From Thermoplasmata archaeon (GTDB lineage Archaea > Thermoplasmatota > Thermoplasmata > Thermoplasmatales > Thermoplasmataceae), in NCBI GenBank assembly GCA_021816965.1, contig JAKAWU010000010.1, forward strand, positions 1 to 32,866: a DNA stretch of 32,866 nt, in the 5' to 3' direction. Position 1 is the first letter of the stretch, and every line of letters begins with the position of its first letter. The notes under the pieces were generated by a model, which saw only the letters and a list, made by a program, of their open reading frames with translations, had not been told where the DNA came from and ran no database searches. This document shows, piece by piece, positions 11,017-17,835 of the stretch. The position numbers and the translations under genes were made by a program.

Positions 11017-11781
11017 ATGTTGAATAACAAGCATATGGAATTTTCTGACACGGAATTAGCCACTGAAGCACAAATTCCGTTATCTTTCCGGAATGTCACA
11101 AAATCATACGGAAAAAATATTGCGGTAAATGGCCTAAATATTGAGATAAAGAATGGAGAAAAAGTAGCTCTCCTTGGAGAAAATGGTGCGGGTAAATCTA
11201 CCACATTGAAAATAATCAGTGGGCTCATGAGGCCGGATGCGGGAAGTGTCAGAATTTATGGGCATCTTCCAAGTTCCATTTCTGCAAAGAAACATATTGG
11301 ATATCTTCCTGAGGACCCGAGTCCATACCTGAATCTTTCTGTCAGGGAAAATCTGGAGTACATAGGAGCAATAAGGCAGGCTAGAAATCTTGAATCAAGG
11401 ATTGATGATCTCATATACAATCTCCAGCTCAAGAATTATGAGAAACAGAAACCACTTTCTCTCTCGCGGGGCAACAGGCAGAAACTCTGCCTTGCACTTT
11501 CCATCATACATGAGCCATCATTCTGTGTCATGGATGAACCACTGAATTACCTTGATATACCTACCCAGGAGATCATTTTCCAGTATTTTGAAAACATGAA
11601 TAGTTCATTCATTATTTCCACCCATATCCTTTCCATTGCAAGGAGATTGACTGAAAGAATTATCATAATTTCATCAGGAGCGAAAATCTGGGATGGGAAA
11701 CTTGCTGAACTTGAAGAAATGGGTAAGAATGGTAAAACCATGGAAAATGTCTTGTCGGAATTGATGAAAAATGTTTCTTAA
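11017..11781 (+). CDS. ABC transporter ATP-binding protein
   Basis: A 254-residue nucleotide-binding subunit that would drive the adjacent permease. Walker A is GENGAGKST (about residues 54-62), the Q-loop region reads GYLPEDPSPY, the signature is LSRGNRQK instead of LSGGQ, Walker B is FCVMDEPLNYLD and the switch histidine is in ISTHIL. A C-terminal extension after the catalytic core fits exporters of the ABC-2 type. ATG 11017 is about 32 bases after CTTATAATAC; ATG at 11035 is an alternative. The stop overlaps the permease start by 11 bases, indicating translational coupling. No substrate-binding protein is nearby, so export is more likely than import. Confidence 0.9.
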   Translation: MLNNKHMEFSDTELATEAQIPLSFRNVTKSYGKNIAVNGLNIEIKNGEKVALLGENGAGKSTTLKIISGLMRPDAGSVRIYGHLPSSISAKKHIGYLPEDPSPYLNLSVRENLEYIGAIRQARNLESRIDDLIYNLQLKNYEKQKPLSLSRGNRQKLCLALSIIHEPSFCVMDEPLNYLDIPTQEIIFQYFENMNSSFIISTHILSIARRLTERIIIISSGAKIWDGKLAELEEMGKNGKTMENVLSELMKNVS

Positions 11782-13174
11782 ACTTCTCACTCTTCTTATC
11801 AGAACCAGATTCTCGAAATCATACCTAATAATTATATCTCTTGTGTTTTTATACTCAATTCTTGCCTTATGGATGGGTTTCACAGCCAGCTTTTTTATTC
11901 CCCAGTATTACCTCGGGTTTATCTTCGCCATATTCCTTGTACCATCAACATATATTGGAGGACTTTCCATCAATGAAGCCGACAGGGATTTTCTCTTCAC
12001 TTCTGCCATTAGGAACAGAGATCTTATTCCAACCTTTTACCTTGCTCAGGCCATTGCCTCTTCTCTGATATTTATGTCTGCCACGCTTGTGTATCTTACG
12101 CTTCTGGCCGGTAATCTCCTGTATCTTGCATATGGAATTATCTCTGTAATCTGCATGTCACTTCTCCCCATATCCATGAGTCTTAACATGGCAGGAAAGG
12201 GTTCCATAATGAAGATTTCCATATGCACACTTGAATTCCTTTGGATTCTGTCATCATTCTTCGGATACACTATTGGGCCCATTTCTTTCCTGGATGGAGG
12301 GCCTGGCTCACTTATCTCCATGCTTGTGCTTCTTACCATAACTGTAATAACAACAAGTCTCGCATTCTTAAGTATCAATGCGGAATCACTTCCCTTCAGG
12401 TTCTATTCCTTTTCTGCAAGAAACAAAGATCGTTTTACAAGAACCCAGAAATTTGCAGGAATGAGAAGTGAGAAAGCAGTCATAAAATTAAATTTCACAC
12501 AGGTTGATTTCACGAGCAGAGTGGCCAGTGTTGGGAATATAAGAGTAAGAGTGAACAGGATCAGTGTATATAGGCTTTTTGTGGTGATGTGCGTTTTCTC
12601 TGCTGCATATTTCGCTGTGAGTTTTTTCTATATCAGAATGGAAAACTTTCAGATTTTTATTGCAACATCATACATAGCATGGTTCCTGATCATTGCAATG
12701 AGCTCTGGAACTATGTCCAAGGAAAGGGCATGGCTTTCCCTGAGCGCAATGCCTATTGAATCATACATGAGACTTCTGATGATATCAAAGATCATACAGG
12801 CATTGTTTGTTTCACTACCCTTCTCAATAGTAACAATTTTTCTGGTTTTTGAAGGTATTCTTCCCACATCTGTACCACTCCTCTTCCTTTTTGTTGTACC
12901 TTCATTTGCAGGTATTAACTTCACTATTTCACTTATAAGAAAACCATACCAGGTACTTCAGGAAGATATTCTTCCATCAATCTATAATTCCTCTCAGTTC
13001 ATGACCGTTCCAATTTCACTTTTTATGCTTTTCTTCATCTTTCTGGTGATGATATATCCATTTGCATTCCTACTCCTGATTCCTGGAACACTACTTGTCA
13101 TATTTGCATCGTTCTTCAGTAGGTTTTACTGGCAGAACGGAATTTACAGATGGATAGAGATGGGTTATGTTTGA
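11771..13174 (+). CDS. ABC transporter permease (membrane subunit)
   Basis: A 467-residue, very hydrophobic protein with roughly 12 membrane segments, starting with SYLIIISLVFLYSILALW and ending with a pair near the C-terminus (LFMLFFIFLVMIYPFAFL). A charged loop of about 60 residues divides two six-helix halves near residues 200-260. I recognise no family motif in the sequence; the assignment as permease comes from topology and from the 11-base overlap with the ATPase gene. Substrate is unknown. The gene ends 14 bases from the convergent IMP dehydrogenase stop. Confidence 0.75.
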   Translation: MFLKLLTLLIRTRFSKSYLIIISLVFLYSILALWMGFTASFFIPQYYLGFIFAIFLVPSTYIGGLSINEADRDFLFTSAIRNRDLIPTFYLAQAIASSLIFMSATLVYLTLLAGNLLYLAYGIISVICMSLLPISMSLNMAGKGSIMKISICTLEFLWILSSFFGYTIGPISFLDGGPGSLISMLVLLTITVITTSLAFLSINAESLPFRFYSFSARNKDRFTRTQKFAGMRSEKAVIKLNFTQVDFTSRVASVGNIRVRVNRISVYRLFVVMCVFSAAYFAVSFFYIRMENFQIFIATSYIAWFLIIAMSSGTMSKERAWLSLSAMPIESYMRLLMISKIIQALFVSLPFSIVTIFLVFEGILPTSVPLLFLFVVPSFAGINFTISLIRKPYQVLQEDILPSIYNSSQFMTVPISLFMLFFIFLVMIYPFAFLLLIPGTLLVIFASFFSRFYWQNGIYRWIEMGYV

Positions 13175-14736: not shown

Positions 14737-15429
14737 TTAAGGATTAAAAATTTCCATTTTATTAGTGGAATAAAGTTTCTCTAGTTTTCCAAGATGTTCA
14801 TGGATTATGGAGTCATAATCATAACTTATGACCTCATAGTATCTCTGCACTATTCTGGAAGGGATGCCAATTTCCAAACTTGCTGCAGTTTTTCTCTTTT
14901 CCCATGGAGTCACCCTGAAATCAGCGGGAAAAACGTCTGATGAATCAGGTCCCTTTTTCCTGACTGTTACTGCATAAATACTGTAAAGGTTGTAAAGCCT
15001 GCTGAACATGTGTGTAACATCATAAATGATCCTGAAGGAACTACTGTATACAGAGAGCGCAGCGTCTCCTATTACAAGTGCAAAATCATTTTCTTCAAGC
15101 AGTGATGTCGGGTCTGAATGCTTACTCCTGATCAGTATTGAATCTGGAAATGTTTTATCCAGGACCAAACGAAGGAAAAATGCAGTGGTTTCAGTCTGGC
15201 TTGTGACCCCTATTCTCATTCTATCATGAGGTTCTTCATTTCGTGATATCATGAGATTCGACATAGAATGCCCAAGGCCCGTTATTGTAGGACCTCTTAC
15301 GAGATTTAATTGATCTTTATTATTGAAATAATCCACAACGGAAATCATGGCATAATCAACTTTTCCCGACATTACAAGGGACAGATTTTCCCTTGTGTCA
15401 TGGCTTTCCACCGAAATTTTATCCTTCAT
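14737..15429 (-). CDS. mqnA: Chorismate dehydratase MqnA (N-terminus uncertain)
   Basis: MqnA converts chorismate to 3-enolpyruvylbenzoate, the first step of the futalosine route to menaquinone. The blocks SGKVDYAMISVVDYF, GVTSQTETTAFFLRLVL and ALVIGDAALSV...YDVTHMFSRLYNLYSIYAVTVRKK match the MqnA/MqnD fold, and the neighbours are mqnE and mqnC. At 230 residues from ATG 15429 it is short: family members begin with an IxxLN...PL segment. The same frame is open upstream back to TAA at about 15499 and encodes SSISLINLTHSIPL, which resembles that missing segment, yet it contains no ATG, GTG or TTG. Either an unusual start (CTG near 15483 or ATA near 15489) is used or a shortened protein is made. 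AAGGGA before 15429 is a weak SD. Confidence 0.78.
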   Translation of the reverse strand: MKDKISVESHDTRENLSLVMSGKVDYAMISVVDYFNNKDQLNLVRGPTITGLGHSMSNLMISRNEEPHDRMRIGVTSQTETTAFFLRLVLDKTFPDSILIRSKHSDPTSLLEENDFALVIGDAALSVYSSSFRIIYDVTHMFSRLYNLYSIYAVTVRKKGPDSSDVFPADFRVTPWEKRKTAASLEIGIPSRIVQRYYEVISYDYDSIIHEHLGKLEKLYSTNKMEIFNP

Positions 15430-15479
15430 GTGTTCCCTTAATGGAATGCTGTGTGTGAGATTGATCAGGGAGATGCTGC

Positions 15480-16589
15480 TCAGAAATATCCCCTTATATT
15501 ATAGAATGTGTCTCTCTTTGCAGGTATTTTCCCTACTTCCCTTATCATGGATGATAATTCTTCCACTGTTGTCTGCTCATGCCTGTTTGTTGCACCGAAT
15601 ATCTTTTCGCTTACGGCGGTTCCGACCAAGTCATTTCCACCTCCAGTCAGTGCCATCTGGGCTATTCCCTTTCCCATTGCCACCCAGTAAACGCTGATGT
15701 TTTTTATAGAATTTCCCAAAATGATCCTTGCAAGGGCGATCACCTTAAGGTCCTTGTCCCCTGGCGATGGTCCCTTCACCATTCCCATTTTCAGCAAAGG
15801 AGTGTTTTCAGGACTGTATTTCAATGGGATGAAAGAGAGGAAACCTGGCGATTCAATCTCGCAATCCCTCAATTTTATCATGTGATCTGCTATATGAACC
15901 CATTTTTCCACATGTCCATAGGTCATTGTGGAATTCCCCCTGATTCCCATGGAATGAAGAAGCTTGGCAATATTGAGATATTCCTCACCGCTTATCTTTT
16001 CAGGTGTGGTGATTGTCTTTCTGATATCCGGATCAAAAATCTCCGCTCCTCCTCCAGTGTGTGCCTGCATGCCAGCAGCATGAAGCCTTTCTATAGTTTC
16101 CTTGACCGAGTTTCCTGTGACCTTGGCAATGAAGGATATCTCTGGTATAGTGAGTGCTTTAAGAGTACTTTCAGGCATGTAATTCCTGACTGTTGAGAAA
16201 ATTTCCTCATAATATTCAAGTGGAAGATATGGGTTGAACCCTCCTACCATATGGATTTCAGTCGGATGAAAAGCCTTTGCTTTCTCCAGTTCATTCTTCA
16301 CATCATCCACAGTGAGTTCATATCCCCGATCAGTTTTTCCCCTGATCTTTGCAGGAACATAAAAAGCACATATGGGACAACTTGCAGCACAGAAATTACT
16401 ATAGTTGATATTATATGAGACGGCGAAGGTCACCCTGTTTCCAATCTGAAGATCAGTAAGTGAGTCTGCCATGGACATCAGTTCATGAACAGAGAGGCTT
16501 TCTAACATCTCCATTGAATCCTTGACATCAAACCGGTGATTATTCCTTGAAAGTTCTGACCAGTAATCTGAGGAATAAGTGTTCAACAT
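15480..16589 (-). CDS. mqnE: Aminofutalosine synthase (radical SAM)
   Basis: A radical S-adenosylmethionine enzyme that joins 3-enolpyruvylbenzoate with the adenosyl moiety to give 6-amino-6-deoxyfutalosine in menaquinone synthesis. The 4Fe-4S cysteines are in NFCAASCPICAFYV (CX3CX2C, about residues 67-74). Downstream are HMVGGFNPYLPLEYYEE, the GGGAEIFDPDIRKTITTPEKISGEEYL block and SFIPLKYSPENT; the IPL...ENT form favours MqnE over MqnC. The ORF track starts at a TTG (16619), but ATG 16589 preceded by GGAG is more likely, giving 369 residues. It is transcribed with mqnA downstream and diverges from mqnC. Confidence 0.87.
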   Translation of the reverse strand: MLNTYSSDYWSELSRNNHRFDVKDSMEMLESLSVHELMSMADSLTDLQIGNRVTFAVSYNINYSNFCAASCPICAFYVPAKIRGKTDRGYELTVDDVKNELEKAKAFHPTEIHMVGGFNPYLPLEYYEEIFSTVRNYMPESTLKALTIPEISFIAKVTGNSVKETIERLHAAGMQAHTGGGAEIFDPDIRKTITTPEKISGEEYLNIAKLLHSMGIRGNSTMTYGHVEKWVHIADHMIKLRDCEIESPGFLSFIPLKYSPENTPLLKMGMVKGPSPGDKDLKVIALARIILGNSIKNISVYWVAMGKGIAQMALTGGGNDLVGTAVSEKIFGATNRHEQTTVEELSSMIREVGKIPAKRDTFYNIRGYF

Positions 16590-16725: not shown

Positions 16726-17835
16726 ATGTTTATGCAGTCGGATGATCCCATGGTAGATATCATGGAAAGGGCAATAAGAGGTGCTCCTATCTCCAGAGAT
16801 GAAATTGTATACTTATATAATGAGGTCGATATCAATAAACTTGGATATGCTGCCCGGATTATAACTGAAAAACTCACTGGAAGACAGGTCAGTTTTGTCT
16901 CGAACATGATATTCAATTACACAAACATATGCAATGTGAGATGCAAATTCTGTGCGTTTTACAGGACTGGAACGGAATCTGATGCATACACACTCACATC
17001 ACAGCAGGTTGTTGACAGGGTGAGACATTTTCATGAGTTATATGGAATAAGACAGTTGCTCATACAGGGTGGTGTGAATCCTGACCTTCTCCTGAGTTAT
17101 TATACAGAATTATTCAAGCATATAAAGCAACAGATCCCTGAGATAGGAATCAATGGTCTCTCAACCTCGGAAATTTCATTCATAGCAAGGAAGGAGAAGA
17201 TGAGCATCGAGAAAACACTTACTGCTCTTAGGGAAAGTGGCCTTGATACTATTCCGGGTGCAGGGGCTGAAATTTTCGATGATGAAGTGAGGAAAGTTCT
17301 GAGAAGGCCCCCAAAGAGTGGAGAACAGTGGCTCAATGTCATGGAAACTGCCCATAAAATGGGAATAAAGACAAGCGCAACAATGATGTTTGGGCATGTT
17401 GAAAATGCGTACCACAAGGCTGATCACCTTCTTGCACTGGTAGAACTGCAGAAAAAATATAACGGATTTCTCTCCTTCACCCCATGGAATTTTGAACCTG
17501 GAAATACAGAGCTTGAAAAAGAGGGACTTGTGTCTGGGAGAGTTGGTGGGCAGGAGGTTCTGAGAAACATAGCAATATCAAGAATTGTGCTTAACCGGCA
17601 CTTGCCCATAATCCAGTCCTCATGGCTTACAAATGGAGTGCAGATGGGACAGATGGCTATTTTTTATGGAGCGAACGATTGGGGTGGAACAATATATGAT
17701 GAAAAGGTCATACCTGCCACTGGGAAAATGGTTGGAAACCTCAGAAAAGAAACAATTATAAGGGCTGTGAAAGAGATTGGAATGGTGCCTGTTGAACGCG
17801 ACAATTCATACAGGATCGTCAGAACGTACATCTGA
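16726..17835 (+). CDS. mqnC: Cyclic dehypoxanthinyl futalosine synthase (radical SAM)
   Basis: A radical SAM enzyme that cyclises dehypoxanthinyl futalosine to the bicyclic precursor of the naphthoquinone ring. The cluster-binding motif is NICNVRCKFCAFYR (Cys69, 73, 76). LIQGGVNPDLLLSYY, the block IPGAGAEIFDDEVRKVLRRPPKSGEQWL, the TMMFGHVE motif and SFTPWNFEPGNTELE are all as in MqnC; the FTPW..PGNT version separates it from MqnE. Length of 369 residues is normal. ATG 16732 is an alternative start two codons in. truD follows 5 bases after the stop and is probably co-transcribed, although it belongs to tRNA modification. Confidence 0.88.
   Translation: MFMQSDDPMVDIMERAIRGAPISRDEIVYLYNEVDINKLGYAARIITEKLTGRQVSFVSNMIFNYTNICNVRCKFCAFYRTGTESDAYTLTSQQVVDRVRHFHELYGIRQLLIQGGVNPDLLLSYYTELFKHIKQQIPEIGINGLSTSEISFIARKEKMSIEKTLTALRESGLDTIPGAGAEIFDDEVRKVLRRPPKSGEQWLNVMETAHKMGIKTSATMMFGHVENAYHKADHLLALVELQKKYNGFLSFTPWNFEPGNTELEKEGLVSGRVGGQEVLRNIAISRIVLNRHLPIIQSSWLTNGVQMGQMAIFYGANDWGGTIYDEKVIPATGKMVGNLRKETIIRAVKEIGMVPVERDNSYRIVRTYI

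Follow-up and report, generated by a model that had tools for sequence, protein, structure and literature searches.

Probable initiation of mqnA at a CTG codon overlapping the mqnE stop codon in a clade of Thermoplasmataceae archaea

In a Thermoplasmata archaeon and three sister species, all of them acidophiles, MqnA is most probably made at full length from a CTG codon (first base at position 15483) by termination-reinitiation at the overlapping stop codon of mqnE, a reading to which a probability of about 0.87 was assigned. No canonical start codon fits the conserved N-terminus of mqnA in this organism. Initiation at CTG is itself already known, though rare. The sequence analysed, here called the window, is a stretch of 32,866 nucleotides from contig JAKAWU010000010.1 (assembly GCA_021816965.1), and positions are numbered from its first letter. 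The features discussed below are as follows, with the basis of each in brackets.

14737..15483, reverse strand: mqnA, proposed coding sequence with CTG start, 248 residues and TAA stop (frame, alignment, PF02621, fold)
15481..15483, reverse strand: CTG, proposed mqnA start codon, TTG in seven congeners (comparison)
15480..15482, reverse strand: TGA, mqnE stop codon, sharing bases with the CTG (sequence)
15483..15485, reverse strand: TTC (Phe), final mqnE codon, whose wobble position doubles as base 1 of the mqnA start (sequence)
15490..15494, reverse strand: AGGGG, Shine-Dalgarno-like, within mqnE, 6 nt 5' of the CTG (16S tail of congener G009)
15427..15429, reverse strand: ATG, mqnA codon 19, first canonical start in frame, not conserved (sequence, comparison)
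15480..16589, reverse strand: mqnE, radical SAM protein of the MqnE/MqnC/CofH kind, ATG 16589 to TGA (assigned as MqnE by elimination)

The mqnE-mqnA junction and the N-terminus of MqnA

The mqnA frame opens behind a TAA at 15501-15499 and, read directly, holds no ATG, GTG or TTG until the ATG at 15429. The initial annotation had pointed to this lack of an ordinary start for the conserved N-terminus and to an open frame running upstream of the ATG as far as the TAA, and both were found to be so: 23 codons separate the two (TAT AAG GGG ATA TTT CTG AGC AGC ATC TCC CTG ATC AAT CTC ACA CAC AGC ATT CCA TTA AGG GAA CAC), none of them ATG, GTG or TTG. The CTG at 15483-15481 and the mqnE TGA at 15482-15480 form a 4-nt CTGA overlap on the same strand; the coordinates, the overlap and the AGGGG just before it were all confirmed. 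The 16S gene was not found in the window genome, and the 16S tail was therefore taken from congener G009; with this tail the AGGGG forms 5 pairs (-6.2 kcal/mol), and its spacing of 6 to the CTG is proper for a Shine-Dalgarno motif.

The mqnE product failed both relevant NCBIfam cut-offs (306 vs 434.55 bits for MqnE, 321 vs 428.1 bits for MqnC), and the divergent gene beyond it, mqnC (16726-17835), passed the MqnC cut-off (435 vs 428 bits); the former was therefore taken to be MqnE by elimination. Elsewhere in the window, a 467-residue open frame (11771-13174, forward strand) had no Pfam or NCBIfam match at 0.001.

The mqnA product matched PF02621 at 70.4 bits (gathering score 26). A second PF02621 protein, with a far stronger match, is encoded at G000:C15 of the window genome and is likely MqnD. 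The AlphaFold model of MqnA (11 sequences) had a mean pLDDT of 90.7, with a strand at residues 3-7 and a helix at 10-19, and its best PDB matches were MqnA structures (TM 0.75-0.82 of query length; 2i6e, 7an7 and 6o9a, E about 1e-17 to 1e-16) ahead of MqnD (2czl, 3.7e-12). The protein thus shares its fold with MqnA, the chorismate dehydratase of the futalosine menaquinone pathway (PDB 2i6e, 6o9a, 7an7), and its gene shares the pathway neighbours mqnE and mqnC; it differs in having about 15-18% identity to those structures over the structural alignment and in matching no NCBIfam model. Sequence alignments to the PDB entries for MqnA begin past the N-terminus.

Twelve genomes of the genus were compared, and mqnA was present in 11. 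The 11 proteins align without gaps at the N-terminus, where S3, I7, L9, H11, S12, P14 and L15 are invariant. Between the window species (G000) and G004, codons 2-18 gave a pS of 0.54 and a pN of 0.05, and between G000 and G001 a pS of 0.81 and a pN of 0.24; synonymous change exceeded non-synonymous change over these codons in all six pairs within the group of species that carry CTG. Codons 2-18 of mqnA are under purifying selection. The resemblance to MqnA that had been noticed in the peptide upstream of the ATG is thus that of genuine MqnA sequence, as seen from the ungapped alignment to 10 congeners, the purifying selection and the invariant residues.

These results bear on the proposal that MqnA is made from the ATG at 15429 as a protein of 230 residues, the upstream similarity being a relic. 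In its favour, no canonical start precedes that codon in the frame, a weak Shine-Dalgarno-like motif stands 4 nt upstream of it, and the corresponding codon of G004 is TTG. Set against this are the selection on codons 2-18 with their seven invariant residues and the replacement of the codon by CTG in G001 and CTT in G010. Going by the predicted structure, a protein that began at Met19 would lack the HSxPL block together with strand 1 and the greater part of helix 1. The ATG is also too far away for coupling: it comes 50 nt after the mqnE stop, and in Haloferax and E. coli a distance of about 20 nt all but abolishes reinitiation (PMC10666635). We consider this explanation very unlikely, and the shortened functional form that the initial annotation had offered as an alternative is not supported, for the same codon 19 substitutions and the same loss of conserved structure. 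A minor short MqnA may nonetheless be produced in three species, since their codon 19, ATG in G000 and G008 and TTG in G004, is preceded at 3-4 nt by an AGGGA-like motif.

Start codons among relatives and the last codon of mqnE

All 11 congeneric loci carry YTG over the mqnE TGA, at the identical protein position and with the same AGGGG upstream. The overlap reads TTGA in seven (G002, G003, G006, G007, G009, G010 and G011) and CTGA in four species (G000, the window species, with G001, G004 and G008). The same CTGA was found in two named Thermoplasmata MAG contigs, YS4.bin59 and YP4.bin8, which are sisters of the window species. The initial annotation had named orthologues that begin at the later ATG as evidence that would overturn its reading; the congeners instead have YTG at the mqnE stop. 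In other genera of the family, most of the loci read have an ATG where the similarity starts or immediately before that point, with TTG in one locus and no clear start in a few; the N-terminal peptide in these genera is M-I-x-L-I-N-x-x-H-S-x-P-L.

On the MqnE tree the CTG species group together as a single clade (100/100); the MqnA tree leaves their grouping unresolved, yet does not contradict it. The site pattern of TTG and CTG is explained by one change on the tree; the four CTG species reflect a single origin of a TTG-to-CTG switch. An assembly or sequencing error in a TTG, ATG or GTG start might be entertained for a fragmented genome (1.36 Mb, archaeal, 77 contigs, 85.5% completeness), and the stretch 15480-15500 had been singled out with this worry in mind. 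The same C is present in four separately assembled species whose proteins are 62-89% identical to that of the window, so that no base correction is needed, and their forming one clade excludes sequencing error; the probability of this explanation is negligible.

A start 5' of the CTG, at the ATA at 15489 or another codon, was also considered, the frame being open to 15501 and ATA being near-cognate. The ATA abuts the AGGGG with a spacing of zero, and it is replaced by CTA in G002 and by GTA in G011 and G009, all three of which retain TTG at the position of the CTG. The region upstream of the CTG is conserved because it codes for mqnE. An upstream start is accordingly very unlikely, and of the CTG or ATA start coupled to mqnE termination that had been suggested initially, the CTG part is strongly supported by the comparison and the ATA part falls away. 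Similarly, the mqnA frame is offset by -1 from that of mqnE and stays open past the mqnE stop codon, as would suit a -1 frameshift near that stop which joined MqnE to MqnA and left mqnA in no need of a start; however, no good slippery heptamer was seen by inspection, mqnA has its own ATG in other genera, and TTG stands exactly at this position in seven congeners, making such a fusion extremely unlikely.

The identity of the overlapping codon is set by the upstream gene. Since mqnE ends in Phe and a stop codon (TTY-TGA), TTG and CTG are the only starts that the overlap permits; a mutation to ATG or GTG would alter MqnE itself. For mqnE the switch from TTG to CTG is silent, its terminal Phe codon going from TTT to TTC, and it is by this change that the CTG would have arisen. 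Conserved Phe codons of mqnE showed a mean of 2.3 such changes on the tree and the site overlapping the start showed 1, which is lowish but not significant, a count of 1 or fewer being seen at 8 of the 45 mqnE columns comparable with it. TTC makes up 52-62% of Phe codons in the CTG species and 21-61% in the others, so that a neutral origin of the CTG start is plausible. More generally, an upstream gene can dictate the start codon of the gene downstream, TTY-TGA allowing TTG and CTG, which are silently interchangeable.

Proposed initiation at CTG

In the proposed mechanism, the ribosome would end mqnE at the overlapping TGA and re-initiate one base back at the CTG, aided by pairing of the AGGGG inside mqnE with CCUCC of the 16S rRNA. 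The initiator Met-tRNA presumably tolerates a C-U mismatch in pairing with the first base of the codon, and the product would be the full-length enzyme, with the predicted N-terminus (M)SSISLINLTHSIPLR in the CTG species. From these comparisons we infer initiation at the CTG, its coupling to mqnE termination, Met as residue 1 and a yield below that from TTG. The last is suggested by the lower stability of CUG initiation complexes in E. coli (PMC11497404); CTG probably initiates less well than TTG.

Termination-reinitiation at gene pairs with a 4-nt overlap (ATGA) has been shown in Haloferax volcanii and E. coli (PMC6728339, PMC10666635). The mqnE-mqnA pair resembles these in its 4-nt stop/start overlap, in the Shine-Dalgarno-like motif within the upstream gene and in joining two genes of one pathway; it differs in that the start is CTG (TTG in sister species) and not ATG, and in that coupling is proposed here from sequence. 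CUG starts are rare in prokaryotes. In a survey of 36 genome groups, switches to CUG numbered 2 from AUG, 1 from GUG and 1 from UUG, the last among 2,468 ancestral UUG starts (PMC5622118). Ribo-seq of Methanosarcina mazei found 5% of unannotated small ORFs to be CUG-started (PMC11456600), and a review of archaeal initiation names AUG, GUG and UUG only (PMC7531240). The mqnA start is likewise a CTG reached from UUG by a single-base switch; unlike those cases, it belongs to a core pathway enzyme, is kept in four species down to 62% protein identity, and arose through a substitution that is silent in the upstream gene.

If the CTG reading is true, the usual start prediction for MqnA is wrong, and gene finders limited to ATG, GTG and TTG leave the protein without its first strand and the greater part of its first helix. 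The sister species offer a natural comparison of TTG and CTG for the study of CUG initiation in archaea.

A genome screen and a permease with a probable ACG start

Genes that have a conserved N-terminus but lack a canonical start were sought by setting about 1.34 Mb of the window genome against about 0.42 Mb of G001. The screen took in 361 genes with 100 residues or more, and reading frame, neighbours and synonymous change served to judge the candidates. After inspection two of the 361 remained, mqnA and an MFS_1 permease:

L187:1507-2712, G000:C54 about 41,644, forward strand: MFS_1 permease (PF07690, 3.1e-56; relatives L186, L188-L193)

The ACG of the permease is invariant in all eight congeners having the gene, while its flanking codons vary, and at least the 36 codons that follow include no in-frame ATG, GTG or TTG. 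The ACG is preceded at about 20-29 nt by a TATA-like box, and in G003 immediately by a stop codon. Judged from these sequence features, the permease probably has a leaderless ACG start. The initiator tRNA retains an intact GGG/CCC anticodon stem and aIF1 is present, so that no general loosening of start selection is evident. There is about an even chance that the genus stably uses starts other than ATG, GTG and TTG in more than one mode, by reinitiation at CTG in mqnA and leaderless initiation at ACG in the permease, with initiator tRNA and aIF1 not obviously altered. The permease could raise the weight of the mqnA finding, and with the two genes together the range of archaeal start codons becomes directly testable.

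False extensions rejected in the screen comprised antisense shadow frames, conserved promoter stretches such as o5969, a tRNA gene (o2729) and a probably frameshifted nucleotidyltransferase (o896). The last, at about 62,671 of G000:C54 (L128), has a nucleotidyltransferase-like frame that seems to carry on from a different upstream frame, which points to a frameshift in the gene.
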